DNA of 64,000 bases from Sternotherus odoratus (lineage: Eukaryota > Chordata > Testudines > Kinosternidae), in NCBI GenBank assembly GCA_032164245.1, contig JAVMKO010000003.1, positions 93,495,890-93,559,889 of the forward strand, read 5' to 3'. The position numbers were made by a program, and so were the translations under genes. The notes beneath the pieces are model-generated. The model did no database searches and was not told the origin of the DNA. It worked only from the letters and a program-made list of their open reading frames with translations. Positions 10,870 to 56,459 of the stretch are shown here, one piece after another; position 1 is the first letter of the stretch; each line of letters opens with the position of its first letter.

Positions 10870-11757
10870 CCCAGACATACCACATGATCCATTGTCTACA
10901 GCCAAGCACTGAGGTATTGCTCCAACCCCTCAGACAGAGACCAACACCTACGAGATCTTCACCAAGCTTTCTCAAAACTACAATACCCGCACAAGGAAAT
11001 AAGGACACAGATCTACAGAGCCAGACATGTACCCAGAAGCCTGCTGCTGCAAGACAAGCCCAAGAAAGAAAACAACAGAACACCACTGGCCATCACCTAC
11101 AGTCCTCAGTTAAAACCTCTGCAACGCATCATCAGTGACCTACAACCCATCCTGGACAATAATCCCTCACTTTCACAGGCCTTGGGAGGAAGGCCAGTCC
11201 TGGCACACAGACAACCTGCCAACCTTAAGCAGATTCTCACCAGCAACAGCACACTGCACCACAATAACTCCAACTCAGGAACCAATCCATGCAACAAACC
11301 TCGATGCCAACTCTGCCCACATATCTACACCAGCAACACCATCACAGGACCTAACCAGATCAACCATACCATCACTGGTTCATTCACCTGCACATCAAGC
11401 AATGTCATATATGCCATTATATGCCACCAATGTCCCTCTGCTATGTACATCGACCAAACTGGACAGTCCCTACGAAAAAGGATAAATGCACACAAATCAG
11501 TAGGAGAACACTTCAATCTGCTTGGACACACAATTACAGATTTAAAAGTCATCATACTGCAGCAAAAAAACTTCAAGTCCAGACTGCAAAGGGAAACTGC
11601 AGAGCTGCAATTCATTTGCAAATTTAACACAATCAATCTGGGACTGAACAAAGACCTTGAGTGGCTTGCCAATTACAAAAATAGCTTCTCCTCCCTCCGA
11701 GTTCACACCTTCAATTCAGCTGCTAGAAGAATACCTCACCTCCCTGCTTTGAGATAA
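10870..11757 (+). pseudogene. PLE polyprotein C-terminus: linker and GIY-YIG endonuclease remnant
   Basis: The frame runs to the stop just after 11754. It begins with a region like the part of PLE proteins that follows the reverse transcriptase (ITYSPQLKPLQRIISDL), then a cysteine linker (CNKPRCQLC near 11299), then a GIY-YIG nuclease domain. In PLEs this enzyme nicks target DNA for target-primed reverse transcription. The GIY half reads VIYAI, but the YIG half reads YID (11444-11452), so the conserved glycine is lost. The LRKRI arginine and the GEHF glutamate remain. About 30 nt between INAHKS and VGEHF are deleted relative to the copy at 15987. The catalytic polymerase part is absent and an early stop lies near 10890, so the element is dead. 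An alternative domain reading is unlikely. Confidence 0.75.
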
Positions 11758-13046: not shown

Positions 13047-13197
13047 CTCCTACCTGATTCTTGACTATTTATTTATACTTGCCCTTGGACACTTCCACTG
13101 CTTGCATCTGACGAAGTGGGTATTAGCCCACAAAAGCTTATGCTCCAATACTTTAGTTAGTCTTTAAGGTGCCACAGGACTCTTTGTTACCTCTAAA
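13047..13197 (+). mobile_element. PLE copy 1, 3' tail with hammerhead-like hairpin
   Basis: After the CR1 the PLE resumes and ends with the conserved tail: CATCTGACGAAG, a GUGGG hairpin, AAGCTTATGCTCC, TAGTTAGTCTTTAAGGTG and GACTCTTTGTTACCTCT. The same tail recurs at 16500, 21090 and 52050 and, reversed, at 19322 and 39722. Confidence 0.85.
13109..13146 (+). other. Hammerhead-like core in PLE tail, copy 1
   Basis: CTGACGA (fits CUGANGA), a stem GTGGG/CCCAC, then AAAA where GAAA is expected, then a 3-bp stem AGC/GCT around TTAT, then C at the cleavage position. The first G of GAAA is lost, so this copy should be inactive. Confidence 0.45.
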
Positions 13198-14825: not shown

Positions 14826-15986
14826 CTTAAGCATACTTCCGGATATTTTCCTTTTGTAAATTGCAAATTATGGGCAGAAGACTCATTTAAGTTTCTGACA
14901 TTTCTAAACCTCAGTTTTTAGGATTCCATTTAAGCTTTCAATAAGTTCTTTACAGATGAGATAACGTTTTTGGCCTGGGCTCCGACAACCGCTATATCCT
15001 AGCAACGTTTTGTTGTACTGTCATTTTCACTCCTTTCTTTTTCTTCTGTATCTCAGCTAGCTGAGGCTTTAATAAGCTAATTCTTACACTTATTCTTTTT
15101 CTGACAGGCAGCATCTCTTTTTCAACTTACTAGGTGTTTTCCCTTTTAAAAAGTATTGATTGTTTGAGCTGATCAGTGTCCGGGGCATTGCTCTTAATTA
15201 TTTTTCTACACAACTGTACCTCGATTACATTCCCACTAGTATATTGGGAAGCAGTCAAGCTATACAGAAATTCCTATTTCATCTTTAATGATTTTGACTA
15301 AATCATCCATAGTCCAATAAATCAAATCAGATCGTCACTCTATCTGCAGCAGCCAGCGCAACTGATTATTTACCGACACAGTCATCAGGAACGGCCTTAT
15401 CTTTTTCAGAATGGTTATAAAGGCTTCTGGGAGGGGGGGGGGAGGGGGAGGAAGCATATGGTGGTGGGAGTTACCACCACCTGACCTCTCTTTTGCATAA
15501 AGTGTTTTATGACTAAGGGTTTCACTGGGTGTGACAGCATTCCATTGCCATGATGGGGTTTCCTCCTCAAGCTAAGCATTCTCTTCTTTAACACTTCAAC
15601 ATCCTCATTAACACTCGCCCCCCTTTAACATTTACACAACCCCCAACTACTTAATTCTCTCTGATCTCGGCAGTGTTTATTTGTACAAAAGCAGCTTTTA
15701 ACTCCTCACTTTCTTTCTTAAAATTCCATTCTGATCCAGGGGGGCTGGATCAATTTTTATAGTGGCTGTGCTGATGATGGAAACCATGTCTTTGGTATTT
15801 GTTATTACTACTTCAAGCCAGGAGGTGTGGCAGCACCACTGTTCTTATCTTCTAAAGTGACACATTTCTCAGACAAATTCTTGTCAGTTCTAAGCTCTTC
15901 TTTTTTTTTTTTAAATAGTTTTTGCACTTATTTTTTAACATAGTACATTTTGCATGCAAAGCTGTACTTTAATGGTGTGGCTGATG
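14826..15986. other. Spacer between inverted LTR-like arms; no gene recognised
   Basis: Pyrimidine-rich DNA with a G-run at 15429-15451. No retroviral coding motif is apparent. Part of the spacer is occupied by the PLE starting near 15987. Confidence 0.4.
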
Positions 15987-16320
15987 CTCATTTACCTGCA
16001 TATCGACCAATGTGATATACACCATCATGTGCCAGCAATGCCCCTCTGCTATGTACATCGGCCAAACCAGACAATCCCTACGTAAAAGGATAAATGGACA
16101 CAAATCTGACATCAAGAATCATAACATTCAAAGACCAGTAGGAGAACACTTCAATCTTCTTGGACATTCCATTAAAGATTTGATGGTGTCAATTTTGAAA
16201 CAGAAAAACTTCCAAAACAGACTCCAATGAGAAACTGAGGAACTGGAATTAATTTTCAAATTGGACACAATTAACCAAGGGCTAAATAGGACTTGCGAAT
16301 GGTTCTCTCATTACACTAAT
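15987..16320 (+). pseudogene. PLE GIY-YIG endonuclease fragment
   Basis: The translated segment starts FTCISTNVIYTIMCQQCP and carries both halves of the nuclease motif (VIYTI ... MYIGQT), the LRKRINGH arginine and the GEHFNLLGH glutamate. The active-site signature is therefore better kept here than in the copies at 10870 and 40129. A TGA at 16228-16230 interrupts the frame just before ETEELELIFKLDTI, which aligns with the copy 1 C-terminus. The reverse transcriptase is wholly absent. It is a dead fragment of the enzyme that nicks target DNA for PLE insertion. Confidence 0.8.
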
Positions 16321-16521
16321 TGATTGCATTTCCCTTGTTAATTTACCTTCACTAGTTATCTCATGCAGACACAGAGATCCATTTCAAAAGGTATTTTTTT
16401 CTCCTGCTGATAATGGCCCATCCAAATTTAACAGCCTCTTAGAATTGGTATGCTAATGTGCAACTTTTTTTTTTTGCTTTCTGTTTATAAATGCATCTTA
16501 CTTCTGTTCCATTCTATGCAT

Positions 16522-16558
16522 CCGATGAAGTGGGCTATAGCCCACGAAAGCTTATGCT
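16522..16558 (+). other. Hammerhead-like core in PLE tail, copy 2
   Basis: CCGATGA (one change from CUGAUGA), one extra A, stem GTGGGC/GCCCAC with TATA loop, GAAA, then AGC/GCT closing on TTAT. This resembles the hammerhead order CUGANGA, stem II, GAAA, stem III. The base after the last stem is G, which would not be cleaved, and stem I is not evident. I treat it as a decayed or divergent hammerhead. Confidence 0.45.
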
Positions 16559-16612
16559 GAAATAAACTGCTTAGTCTCTAAGATGCTACAAAGTCTTCCT
16601 TTTCCATTAAGT

Positions 16613-19309: not shown

Positions 19310-19321
19310 ATCTATCTCCAT

Positions 19322-19415
19322 CAGAGGGGTAGCCGTGTTAGTCTGGATCTGCAAAAGCGACAAAGGGTCTTGTAACACCTTATAGACTAACAGATAAGGT
19401 GTTACAAGACTCTTT
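19322..19415 (-). mobile_element. Short PLE insertion with inverted 5' stub
   Basis: A 94-bp insertion flanked by a perfect 12-bp target duplication, ATCTATCTCCAT (19310-19321 and 19416-19427). It is the minus-strand PLE 3' terminus (CAGAGGGGTAGCCGTGTTAG on the left), and its other end is an inverted copy of its own tail: 19362-19383 pairs with 19394-19415 over 22 nt with one mismatch, leaving a 10-nt loop. No coding sequence. Confidence 0.88.
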
Positions 19416-19427
19416 ATCTATCTCCAT

Positions 19428-20819: not shown

Positions 20820-21010
20820 TACAGGAACTCCTCACTTAACATTTAAGTTATGTTCTGAAAAATGTGACTTTAAGCGAAATGACGTTAAATGAAGCAAGTT
20901 TTCCCATAAGAATTAATGTAAATGGAGGGGTTAGGATCCAGGGAATTTTTTTTCCACCAGACAAAAGACTAATATTTACACACACACACAGTATAAGTTT
21001 TAAACAAATA

Positions 21011-21176
21011 AAACAGCCACTTAGAATTGGTATGCTAATGTTCAACTTTTTTTTTGCGCTTTCTGTGTGTATAAATGCATCTTACTTCTGTTCCATTCTA
21101 TGCATCCGATGAAGTGGGCTGTAGCCCATGAAAGCTTATGCTGAAATAAACTGGTTAGTCTCTAAGGCTTCCTCGT
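21011..21176 (+). mobile_element. PLE 3' tail fragment inside the Tigger-like element
   Basis: From CTTAGAATTGGTATGCTAAT it follows the tail of the copy at 15987, including CATCCGATGAAG, the GTGGGC/GCCCAT hairpin, GAAAGCTTATGCTGAAATAAA and TGGTTAGTCTCTAAG. Non-coding. The joining sequences on either side agree with an intact Tigger-like element if this piece is removed. Confidence 0.8.
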
Positions 21177-39721: not shown

Positions 39722-40427
39722 AAGGTTTCAGGGTAGTAGCCATTTTAATCCGTATCTGCAAAAAGAATGAGGAGTACTTGTGATACTTTAGAGACTAACC
39801 AATTTATTTGGACATAAGCTTTATATAGATAGATATAGATATAGATATACACACAGAAAACATGAAAAGGTGGAGGTTGCCATATCAACTTTAAGTGGCT
39901 TAATCAATTAAGGTGAGCTATTATTAGCAGAAGAAAAAATAACCTTTTGTAGCGATAATCAGGATGGCTCATTTCAAGCAGTTGGCAAGAAGGTGTGAAT
40001 AACAGTAGGGGGATACTTGACATGGGGAAATAGATTCAATTTATGTAATGACCAAGCCACTCCCAGTCTTTATTAAAGCCTAATTTAATGGTATCTAGTT
40101 TGAAAATTAATTCCAGTTCAACAGTTTCTCATTGGAGTCTGCTTTTGAAGTTTTTTGGTTGAAGAATTGCCACTTTTAAGTCTGTTACTGAGTGACCAGA
40201 AAGATTGACGTGTTCTCCTACTGATTTTTGAATGTTATAATTCCTGATATCAGATTTGTGTCCATTTATTCTTTTGCGTTGAGACTGTTCAGTTTGGCTG
40301 GTGTACATGGCAGAGGGGCATTGCTGGCACATGATGGCATATATCACATTGGTAGATGTGCAGGTGAACAAGCCCCTGATGGCTAATCGCCTCATCACAT
40401 CAGCCACAAGTACTCCTTGTTCTTTTT
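39722..40427 (-). mobile_element. Penelope-like element, copy 4, with inverted 5' stub
   Basis: Minus-strand PLE. The 3' end (left) is GGTTTCAGGGTAGTAGCC and the tail TACTTTAGAGACTAACCAAT. A (GATATA)-type microsatellite at 39829-39850 now occupies the place of the hammerhead-like hairpin. The coding segment follows. At the right end, 40405-40427 is an inverted copy of tail segment 39760-39782, matching at 21 of 23 positions. No clear target duplication is seen. Confidence 0.82.
40010..40407 (-). pseudogene. PLE GIY-YIG endonuclease fragment
   Basis: From 40407 the frame reads into FTCTSTNVIYAIMCQQCP, RKRINGHKSDIRNYNIQK and GEHVNLSGH, the GIY-YIG nuclease layout. The second motif reads YTS instead of YIG, so the active-site signature is damaged. 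After LQ the frame meets a TGA (just below 40129) at the same codon as in the copy at 15987, then continues in register as ETVELELIFKLDTI. No polymerase part remains. Confidence 0.75.
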
Positions 40428-41318: not shown

Positions 41319-41525
41319 ACTAGCATAAGTGCCCGGCGCTGCTCGGGTCAGTCGGAGGTGGGGAGGTGGCAGACAGCTGACACCCCCTGACCAACCCCAA
41401 CACCCACCCCTCACCCCTCACCCACCCCGATACCTTCCCACCCCCCCAAGCAAACCCAACACCCCCACCTCACCCCCCGACCAAACCCGACACCCCCACC
41501 TCACTTACCGTCCCACCAAACCCGA

Positions 41526-41845
41526 GTGATCTCCGGGGTTCCGTTGGGAGGGGGGAGGGGCAGTGAGCTGAGTGATCTCCGGGGTTCCGTTGGGAGGGGG
41601 GAGGGGCAGTGAGCTGAGTGATCTCCGGGGTTCCGTTGGAGGAGGGAGGGGCAGTGAGCTGAGTGATCTCCGGGGTTCCGTTGGGAGGGGGGAGGGGCAG
41701 TGAGCTGAGTGAATCTCCGGGGTTCCGTTGGAGGAGGGAGGGGCAGTGAGCTGAGTGATCTCCGGGGTTCCGTTGGGAGGGGGGAGGGGCAGAGAACTGA
41801 GGGATCTCCGGCGTTCTGTTGGAGGAGGGAGGGGTGAGCTGAGCG
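41526..41845 (+). repeat. 46-bp minisatellite, about seven units
   Basis: Units start at 41526, 41572, 41618, 41663, 41709, 41755 and 41801. The unit begins GTGATCTCCGGGGTTCCGTT and ends GGCAGTGAGCTGA. Two variants exist in the G-rich part (GGGAGGGGGGAGGGG and GGAGGAGGGAGGGG); the first fits a G-quadruplex pattern. Confidence 0.95.
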
Positions 41846-42058
41846 AGTGAGGTATCTGTTGGAGGGGGGTATTATGACATCATCGCCACCTAACCGCCCA
41901 GCCGATGTGATTGGCCCTGAAAGACTTTCACCCCTGGGGGGCGTCAGAGGTGAGATCCGAAAATTTTTCGACCCTTACCAGCATCTAGACCCCAAGACCC
42001 CTCACTGTACCAAATTTCAAGTCTCTGGCTCAAACGGTGCGGGAGGACTTCGCAGTCA

Positions 42059-51456: not shown

Positions 51457-52682
51457 TGACATGCTGTCTGGAGTGTCTCATGACTGTGAGTGCCAATCTC
51501 AGTGCAGACTGTCAAAGCACATGGTAGATACCCCAAATTGGTGGTATGTTCCATAATTAGATTTCACCAACATAGTAACAAATGTGAACTTCTGAAGCAC
51601 TATATGCTAGACGTAGAGATAAATTGTCATTTACACCAAAAATCAAAAAATATTCAGGTTGCTGCCAGTCCCAAGAGATCAGTCACTTACCCCATATCAA
51701 TTTGTACCACATATCTTATACCAAAGACAATGCTGATAGCCAATCCTATAGTAAACTAACCAAAGATTTATTAACTTGGAAAAAGAAATGAGTTATTTAG
51801 AGGTTAAAGTGGCAACATATAAGCACAAATGAGTTAGTCTATTGCTCCAAAAGGTGAAGGACATGTAGTAATCTGTCCACTGAACGTCTTTTTGGACTAA
51901 AGCAGGTTGACCCTGGGGATCACTGCTTTTGTTTCTTAGCTCCAGCCCTTGTGAGAGTCCAAACAGAAAAGGTAACAAAGAGTCCTGTGGCACCTTAAAG
52001 ACTAACTAAAGTATTGAAGCATAAGCTGGACACTTCCACTGCTTGCATCCGACGCAGTGGGTATTAGCCCATGAAAGCTTATGCTTCAATACTTTAGTTA
52101 GTCTTTAAGGTGCCACAGGACTCTTTGTTACCTCTGCTATTCCAGACCAACACGGCTACCTCGCTGATTCTTGATAAACAGAAAAGAGATCCAGTTTCTC
52201 CTTATCAGGAATTTTTATCCCCCTTCACTCCAGAATCTAAGCTGATGGGGATGAGTTCATGTGCAAGGTCTCTCCTTCCAGGAAGGAGTTAGGAATTCAA
52301 GCAACCAAGTCTCTCCCCTTTGATGCTACACAGTACACATTTGCCTTCAATGGGCCATCTTTTGTGCCATATGAGTACTTTACCTTAATCAATGCTTCTT
52401 TTCCTTTTTGAGTTACACAGTTACAGAGGTTTACAATGCAAACATCAATACAACTTTATATCATTGGCTAGAGGGATTATAAGTGTGCTCAATATATGCA
52501 GCATCCTACAAGCAGTTCATAAAGTCTAAACACTGAATGCATTCTTATCAATTTAACATCTAATATCTATTTTGATAGTGCTAACATAGGTAAGCAAGAC
52601 TGGTTTCCAGCTCCCCAGTTGTAAATGTTCTGGGAGGCGTGAGGCCTCAGCATGAACTGGCACTTGGTCTGCCAGCATCACA
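51457..52682 (-). mobile_element. LTR element inserted in the old CR1
   Basis: Runs from TGACATGCTG to CAGCATCACA, which are inverted at 8 of 10 positions, with GTCCT on both sides (51452-51456, 52683-52687). TTTATT at 51767-51772 gives a minus-strand AATAAA. Without the nested PLE and one copy of that PLE's target duplication it is about 1.0 kb. No coding sequence; probably a solo LTR. The duplication restores a continuous CR1 sequence when the element is removed. Confidence 0.8.
51972..52175 (+). mobile_element. PLE tail insertion with perfect 58-bp inverted arms
   Basis: A 204-bp insertion flanked by AAACAGAAAAG (51961-51971 and 52176-52186). The plus-strand part runs GGACACTTCCACTGC, hammerhead-like hairpin, tail, CACGGCTACCTCGCTGATTC. 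In front of it stands an inverted copy of the tail: 51970-52027 and 52076-52133 are perfect reverse complements over 58 nt, counting two bases of chance overlap with the target, with a 48-nt spacer. Non-coding. Confidence 0.92.
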
Positions 52683-55485: not shown

Positions 55486-56459
55486 TGTTATGCTATACAG
55501 AGCACACGTGATCTTTTATAAGAGGAAGGCAATACGCCATACTTTATTAATAATACAAAGCAGTTAGCATATGCATTTCAGTCTCTCTCTCTCACACACA
55601 CACACACACCATGCACACAGTCCTGCCAGTTGATGTTTATAGTTACCAGTCTCTTGTTGTAGCTCGAGTCAATCTAATGGCCAGTTAGATTGATCACGAG
55701 TAAGAAGCTGGGGGGGGTCTCTGTTGGTCATGATGCTCGGAGGCTTTGCAGGACTGAACCCATAGTTTCATGGCAAAACACCCAAGTTTTATACCTGTAA
55801 ATTTCCATTTGAGTCCATGCATTTTGCAATGTCATCCTGTAATCATTAGTTCTTAAGTGGTGTTAATCTTGGGGTTTCCCCACTGTCATCCTTTGATGGT
55901 TATTGTCGGGTTTCCCATCAATCATCTTTTATTTGTTGTCTTGCCTTTGGAGGTGTTTGCTCACCTCTGAGGTAGTCAATGCTGCATAACATGTTTAGCA
56001 TCCGATACAATGAATGTTTTCTGATTGTCTCCTTGTCGCCTGGTCTTTTTAAGTCTCTCACTCTTCTTGACTCCCTTTGGATATTTGTGATGGCTTCATG
56101 CTTATCTCTTCCTGATGCATGCATTCCTCTTTCACACAAACAATCACACAATCTTTTACAAACATCTTTAAAGGTAGCAGAATACAGAATACATTGTAAA
56201 TTAAGCCTTGCTAAATCTTATAACTAAAACAATTTACATTGGGGGCTTCAGGCCCTCAACATTTCTTTAATCTATTTACCATAGACACAATACAAAATCC
56301 TGTCTCTTACTAACTAAACTTCGTAACAGGTCCTAATTGTAATGCATACTGGAAACATCACACAGTTTCAGACAGTCATTTATTTCTGTTATAGAATTAA
56401 ATGAAAGTTTACATCAATTCTTATAACTATTAGTACAATTATAAAATCCTGCTCCTACA
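55486..56459 (-). mobile_element. Solo LTR, class I ERV-like, copy B
   Basis: A 974-bp element, reverse complement of copy A (1169-2110), ending TGTTATGC on the left and CTCCTACA on the right. GCCT lies on both sides (55482-55485, 56460-56463), a 4-bp target duplication. Minus-strand TATAAAA is at 55787-55793 and AATAAA near 55543-55548, in correct order. No internal retroviral sequence. A (CT)n(CA)n microsatellite at 55581-55609 lies inside it. Confidence 0.88.
55787..55793 (-). promoter_or_regulatory. TATA box of LTR copy B
   Basis: TATAAAA on the minus strand, about 240 bp upstream of the AATAAA of the same LTR. Confidence 0.65.

Follow-up and report, generated by a model that had tools for sequence, protein, structure and literature searches.

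A 5'-truncated copy of a Penelope-like element (PLE) in the turtle Sternotherus odoratus terminates, opposite its 3' tail, in a short inverted piece of that same tail. How does one insertion come to carry tail sequence at both ends, and does the inverted piece stop at a set position? The copy (copy A, minus strand, 39725-40427) lies in a 64,000-nt stretch of contig JAVMKO010000003.1 (assembly GCA_032164245.1, positions 93,495,890 to 93,559,889), which was analysed as a whole and is called the window here. Tail ends of these elements were found to be sharply bimodal, falling at an inner site (I) or at an outer site (O) about 39 nt beyond it. Fold-back insertions verified by target-site duplications (TSDs) nearly always had one end at each site.

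Inverted tail stubs in the window

Copy A is a coding copy that retains the GIY-YIG end region of the element, with an open reading frame remnant at 40129-40425 (minus strand) and a tail at 39725-39822. The first-pass annotation had matched its stub (40405-40427, plus strand) to the tail segment at 39760-39782 (minus strand), and BLASTN recovered the same match in the 64-kb window (21/23 nt; E = 0.003). The outer edge of the repeated segment is I and the stub forms the inner-site arm; the outer tail from I to O (39725-39759, minus strand) is absent from it. The stub is not joined straight to the element body. It passes first into an inverted piece of the body, 19 nt long (40389-40407, plus strand; 18/19 against the body of locus L003), and the two have about 6 nt (GCCACA) in common. 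The direct body begins near 40383, and the inverted body piece abuts it in element order. Comparison of the flanks revealed no clear TSD around copy A. A GATATA microsatellite occupies 39822-39860 of copy A, where other copies have the pre-tail stretch.

Two other window copies had been said to bear inverted tail stubs, and both proved to be complete fold-back insertions. Copy B (51972-52175, plus strand) has its I arm on the left (approximately 51972-52027) and its O arm on the right, between exact 11-bp TSDs, AAACAGAAAAG, at 51961-51971 and 52176-52186 (both plus strand). Copy C (19322-19415, minus strand) is 94 nt long, with the O arm on the left and the I arm on the right (approximately 19388-19415, located by eye); its exact 12-bp TSDs, ATCTATCTCCAT, stand at 19310-19321 and 19416-19427 (both plus strand). 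In copies A, B and C the outer end of the stub falls about 35-40 nt short of the far end of the tail. By the tail model, before TSD correction, these ends lie at 119 (A), 121 (B) and 114 (C, by eye); the common breakpoint first proposed is thus close in the three copies and not identical. Within copy B, 51987-52116 scored in Rfam as a microRNA precursor (mir-577, mir-26) without reaching the gathering cut-off; this is an effect of the palindrome and might lead microRNA annotation astray.

Two tail sites, nearly always one at each end

To place these ends we drew three samples from the window's own assembly (1.76 Gb); by their coordinates, no place occurs in more than one of them. They cover one genome and mostly one tail subfamily. 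Sample 1 consisted of twenty 10-kb stretches around copy A matches, seven further loci and the window, giving 28 sequences and 289,531 bases. Its 69 tail ends (68 by tail profile, plus the copy C stub by eye) fell 34 at O (model 150-163), 32 at I (model 108-134, mostly 115-121) and 3 elsewhere. Adjacent head-to-head arms less than 3.5 kb apart were counted as pairs, and there were 17. A TSD was accepted if its score exceeded the maximum of about 300 mismatched-flank controls; nine pairs were verified in this way, and 9/9 were I+O. The other eight comprised five I+O (with the I end of L002 read at 134), one O+O, one I with an end at neither site, and one I+I.

Sample 2 held 39 of the 40 best places for the 128-nt copy B tail, copy B itself being omitted. 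This query picks O arms and leaves the partner arm unselected. An opposite arm was present upstream in 21/39, and a TSD of 11-17 bp enclosed both arms in 18, the maximum control score being 7 in 105 mismatched flanks. The partner ended at I (model 89-101) in 16 of the 18, elsewhere in 2 (L033 and L056) and at O in 0. Model positions of the two off-site ends were 54 and 67, the latter being that of L056 and read as 61 in another alignment. The three pairs beyond the verified 18 were L035, L045 and L030; in L030 the partner's model end falls at O, a third arm lies nearby and no TSD was found. The sharp peak of stub endpoints that the first-pass annotation had predicted was therefore found in partner arms on which the search had no hold. 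On each of the two sides, the nick followed A or G in 15/18 of these insertions, the pattern that a single enzyme cutting both strands would leave.

A 100-base query ending at I gave no match, probably owing to how common its words are. For sample 3, a 27-mer from upstream of I was used, which has 10,719 occurrences in the genome; 100 listed matches corresponded to 85 loci, and the first 80 of these were taken. This word selects neither I nor O arms, but requires an arm that reaches position 96; the I-end peak at 96 is partly produced by the search word ending there, a bias of which sample 2 is free. A head-to-head arm was seen in 39/80 loci, and 32 were TSD-verified at a score of at least 9, which 10/400 mismatched controls also reached, 7 of those 10 with tail-derived letters. 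TSDs of 9-20 bp, most commonly 13, enclosed both arms in these 32. Thirty were I+O (binomial P = 1.2e-7 against 0.5), none was I+I, none was O+O, one was O plus an end elsewhere (L086) and one an end elsewhere plus I (L113). By model end alone, all 39 pairs divided into 35 I+O, 2 I+I (L071, L113) and 2 O plus elsewhere (L076, L086). The TSDs of L142 and L144 are doubtful, both loci sitting at the ends of other copies; leaving them out gives 28/30 I+O.

Across the three samples, 55/59 TSD-verified fold-backs were I+O, 4 had one end elsewhere, and none was I+I or O+O. Because the TSDs lie outside both arms, the two arms belong to one insertion. What is observed, then, is an insert with two sharp ends, one per site, arms in head-to-head order and TSDs round the whole. 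The proposal that a fixed step of insertion operates across subfamilies is supported, with three tail types named by eye, on 28, 39 and 80 sequences; this goes part of the way to the alignment of some hundreds of copies that the first-pass annotation had called for. Its claim that the stub always stops at the inner site took the wrong form. It is the O arm that is short in L018, L027 and L104. Since either arm may be the short one, the rule is one end at each of two sites.

Some loci had further features. In L113 the odd arm repeats a stretch of tail and looks by eye like an O start, as if reverse transcription had restarted or jumped at a start site. L030 (34-428) contains three PLE arms in 400 nt: two are O-ended and lie head to head, and the third is direct and follows after 58 nt. 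No TSD was found there. In L118, L142 and L144 the fold-back insertion begins only a few bases from where another PLE copy ends, which may reflect targeting of element ends.

Template use and the course of insertion

The arms were compared to ask how each had been copied. Among the 45 pairs measured in samples 2 and 3, the I arm outreached the O arm in the upstream direction by 10 nt or more in 11, or in 10 if L074, with its fragmented O arm, is set aside. L018 combines an I arm that includes about 2 kb of body with an O arm of about 90 nt. Arms overlapped in 43/45 pairs, the exceptions being L074 and L104; in L027, from sample 1, they hardly overlap. Variants were shared in 27/115 comparisons between arms of one insertion as against 210/5378 between different insertions (47 pairs), and an indel marker agreed in 22/23 informative pairs. 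The discordant pair, L034, has the diagnostic indel in one arm only. Together these comparisons indicate that the templates of the two arms usually come from one source, and yet that two molecules can be used. At the inner junction, overlap of at least 3 nt occurred in 13/45 pairs (the 95th percentile of the null being 3) and a gap in 16/45, which makes microhomology there only suggestive. The 41 sample 3 loci with no opposite arm within reach ended at O in 30 cases, at I in 8 and elsewhere in 3. One-armed copies with a TSD beside the 5' end (score at least 11, self-matches removed by eye, no control) ended at O in 6 cases and at I in 1. The predominance of O among one-armed copies is a weak hint that copying starts first, or mainly, at O.

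Two-strand priming is, in our judgement, the probable course of events. The element endonuclease would cut both target strands, mostly 11-17 nt apart, and reverse transcription of the element RNA would be primed by each free 3' end, at O for one of them and about 39 nt upstream, at I, for the other. The resulting pair of antisense cDNAs would run inward, halt at variable points and be joined head to head, the inverted stub being the shorter of the two. An asymmetric, probably dimeric, complex may give each strand its one site, and where only one strand is copied the end would, it seems, usually be O. That the ends are start sites of reverse transcription and the primers the two target strands is inferred from the arrangement of sequence at the insertions. 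Priming at I and O from two strands is in keeping with work on the Poseidon enzyme of the anole, in which both strands are extended and the RNA has two internal starts (PMC11167929). The same paper is our one basis for placing O, by analogy, inside the RNA. L030 had been considered as proof that the RNA runs past O and was dropped, as what follows its O end does not resemble the element.

In the tail RNA, the loop of a proposed stem, GTTAGTCT/AGACTAAC, would contain I, and O would lie some 20 nt beyond the stem on its 3' side. In 28 copies and 12 columns, including flanking ones, 248/331 cells pair, compared with 145 and 94 when the strands are slid by one column. The columns hardly vary, and the pairing is therefore no proof of the stem. 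When six single copies were folded, 4/6 did no better than shuffles. The anole template RNA, folded here, gave a stem at 50-62/84-100 with probability of at least 0.97 and an AC-rich loop at 71-84. The published anole start (111-118) is 11 nt 3' of this computed stem, and the length of the tail would put the anole inner site within the loop. We put forward tentatively, as a possibility, a stricter form of the two-strand scheme. The PLE complex would be obligately asymmetric, with two reverse transcriptases, one per cut strand, wired to O first and to I second, and every two-strand insertion would have a tail at one end and none at the other. The tail, long puzzling in PLEs, would simply be the distance between starts on an RNA stem-loop, with I in the loop and O just 3' of the stem, a layout kept between turtle and lizard without sequence similarity.

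LINE-1 elements acquire inverted 5' parts by twin priming, in which the second target strand primes on the element RNA at a variable site set by microhomology to the target, and inverted and direct parts do not overlap. If turtle PLEs did the same on a single RNA, the second strand would prime in the molecule already in use and the two cDNAs would divide it. The O arm of L027 and L104 is indeed little more than the O-I tail, with the I arm starting where it stops; the inverted body piece of copy A abuts the direct body, and the 22/23 indel concordance also agrees with a single RNA. Such division fits L027, L104 and perhaps copy A. It does not fit the overlap that arms usually show: in 43/45 pairs the same stretch was copied twice, L034 has two source types, and the second start is fixed in the tail (I in 16/18 of sample 2), unlike in LINE-1. 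We consider it unlikely as the general explanation. Snap-back of the cDNA, with one O-primed strand folding on itself and copying part of its own sequence into the stub, seems quite improbable. It would yield palindromic junctions and head-to-head arms, it would account for the excess of variants shared between arms, and self-priming has been proposed for rotifer elements in the available text of PMC3846280. Against this, the 11/45 I arms that reach at least 10 nt further upstream cannot be copies of the O arm; L018 has about 2 kb of body in its I arm and about 90 nt in its O arm, and the arms of L027 hardly overlap. Snap-back is contradicted by pairs whose arms are not contained one in the other, unless later deletions produced them; the tail in the O arm that is missing from the I arm and the diagnostic indel of L034 in a single arm also speak against it.

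Two further accounts were considered. Were RNA 3' ends at I and O drawn independently from a pool for each end of an insertion, both ends would be common, as they are in sample 1, but about half of the insertions should be I+I or O+O. With 0 such cases in the 59 verified (sample 2 speaking only against O+O), we give independent drawing hardly any credence. Later rearrangement, nested insertion or loss of unstable palindromes might be read into L118, L142 and L144, which sit at the ends of other copies, and into copy A with its lack of a clear TSD. The TSDs that enclose both arms in 59 insertions speak against it, and I+I palindromes, presumably no less stable than I+O ones, are absent from the TSD-verified set; this origin, too, is very improbable.

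Several observations nevertheless weigh against two-strand priming at fixed sites. The I peak is about 12 nt wide rather than a single base. By the cut-offs used, L033, L056, L086 and L113 have one end at neither site in spite of TSD verification. L071 is I+I, as is L026, whose arms are 1.3 kb apart; L015 (1714-2896) is O+O with a second fragment of 40 nt, and the model ends of L030 make it O+O, with another arm nearby, all four lacking TSD support. Samples 2 and 3 represent one tail subfamily, and the A type contributes 2 TSD-verified pairs (L018, L020). The stem shows no real covariation, and its region pairs differently in the lowest-energy fold of the B-type tail.

Element identity and related systems

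The window elements are Penelope-like retrotransposons of the Penelope/Poseidon type. Copy F (10888-11757, plus strand) is a 289-aa stop-free frame from the C-terminal part of the element. It has 83 homologs, the named ones mostly turtle proteins; many carry PF00078 (reverse transcriptase) and PF26215, and some PF01541 (GIY-YIG). The reverse transcriptase is seen through PF00078 in these close turtle homologs and not in the truncated window copies themselves. PF01541 matched 10888-11754 at E = 0.033 and 14.9 bits, below the 22.6 cut-off, and was not listed in the Pfam search for the 98 aa of copy A. PLE traits encountered here are the 30-40 nt 3' tail (ends about 39 nt apart), inverted partial copies and TSDs. 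Two direct units stand 58 nt apart in L030 with a spacer that is not element-like; tandem units (pLTRs) lacked a systematic search. Rfam gave zero matches to the hammerhead ribozyme; by eye, A-type tails show the core CTGATGA..GAAA. A hammerhead ribozyme in the pLTR is common among PLEs and not universal. Vertebrate copies were sought in the viral_contigs and genome_contigs collections and none was found.

Other copies in the window end in various ways. Copy D (13082-13194, plus strand) has a tail ending at the inner site (model end 117), and no tail stub was found for it. The coding copy E (15991-16599, plus strand) ends near the inner site (model end 109), and its 5' end bears an inverted piece of the body. 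Located within 15900-16000, this piece, CATCAGCCACACCAT, stands immediately before the direct body; the body position is almost that of the piece in copy A. The tail fragment of copy G (21005-21167, plus strand) has a model end of 91, at neither site. Outside the PLE copies, a 46-nt G-rich unit is repeated seven times in tandem at 41524-41880, beside a C-rich 30-nt repeat, and a repeat pair of about 1 kb (1169-2110 and 55486-56459) lies in opposite orientation with 79% identity.

The closest biochemical parallel is the Poseidon element of Anolis carolinensis (PAc). According to the available portions of the 2024 paper, its enzyme cleaves and extends both strands in vitro, and reverse transcription begins inside the RNA at two adjacent sites, the tail being the stretch between (PMC11167929). 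In these respects PAc resembles the turtle elements, with a 30-40 nt tail bounded by two sites, both strands cut and extended, and starts within the RNA; by the computed folds it would also resemble the proposed turtle tail in having a likely inner site in a loop and a start 3' of a stem. Those portions report no difference in start site between top and bottom strands and, unlike the present account, discuss no inverted stubs and do not say that a single insertion uses a different site at each of its ends; later steps were left for validation (PMC11167929). In the rotifer Adineta vaga, Penelope elements have inverted terminal copies with the tail at only one end, variable truncation, and TSDs of 8-10 bp in named cases and none in others, as far as the available text of the 2013 paper goes (PMC3846280). 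TSDs and variable truncation are shared with the turtle. That text differs in proceeding family by family, in favouring self-priming on an antisense template and in giving no counts of one end per site (PMC3846280). Inverted terminal copies and the one-ended tail are also noted in the consulted part of a curation guide (PMC8969392). The first-pass annotation knew of no earlier description of its exact rule for this vertebrate family. As far as these portions show, the one-ended rotifer tail and the anole start sites were already known (PMC3846280, PMC11167929), and the pairing rule is unstated in them. The strict rule was likewise unstated in the full-text literature searched; it may exist in earlier papers or older reviews, outside that search.

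The origin of PLE inverted terminal copies and of the one-ended tail is a long-standing question. The one-of-each rule, seen in 55/59 verified insertions, makes a testable statement about an asymmetric two-strand reverse transcription complex, and lends itself to checks in any genome with many such elements as well as in the existing in vitro system.
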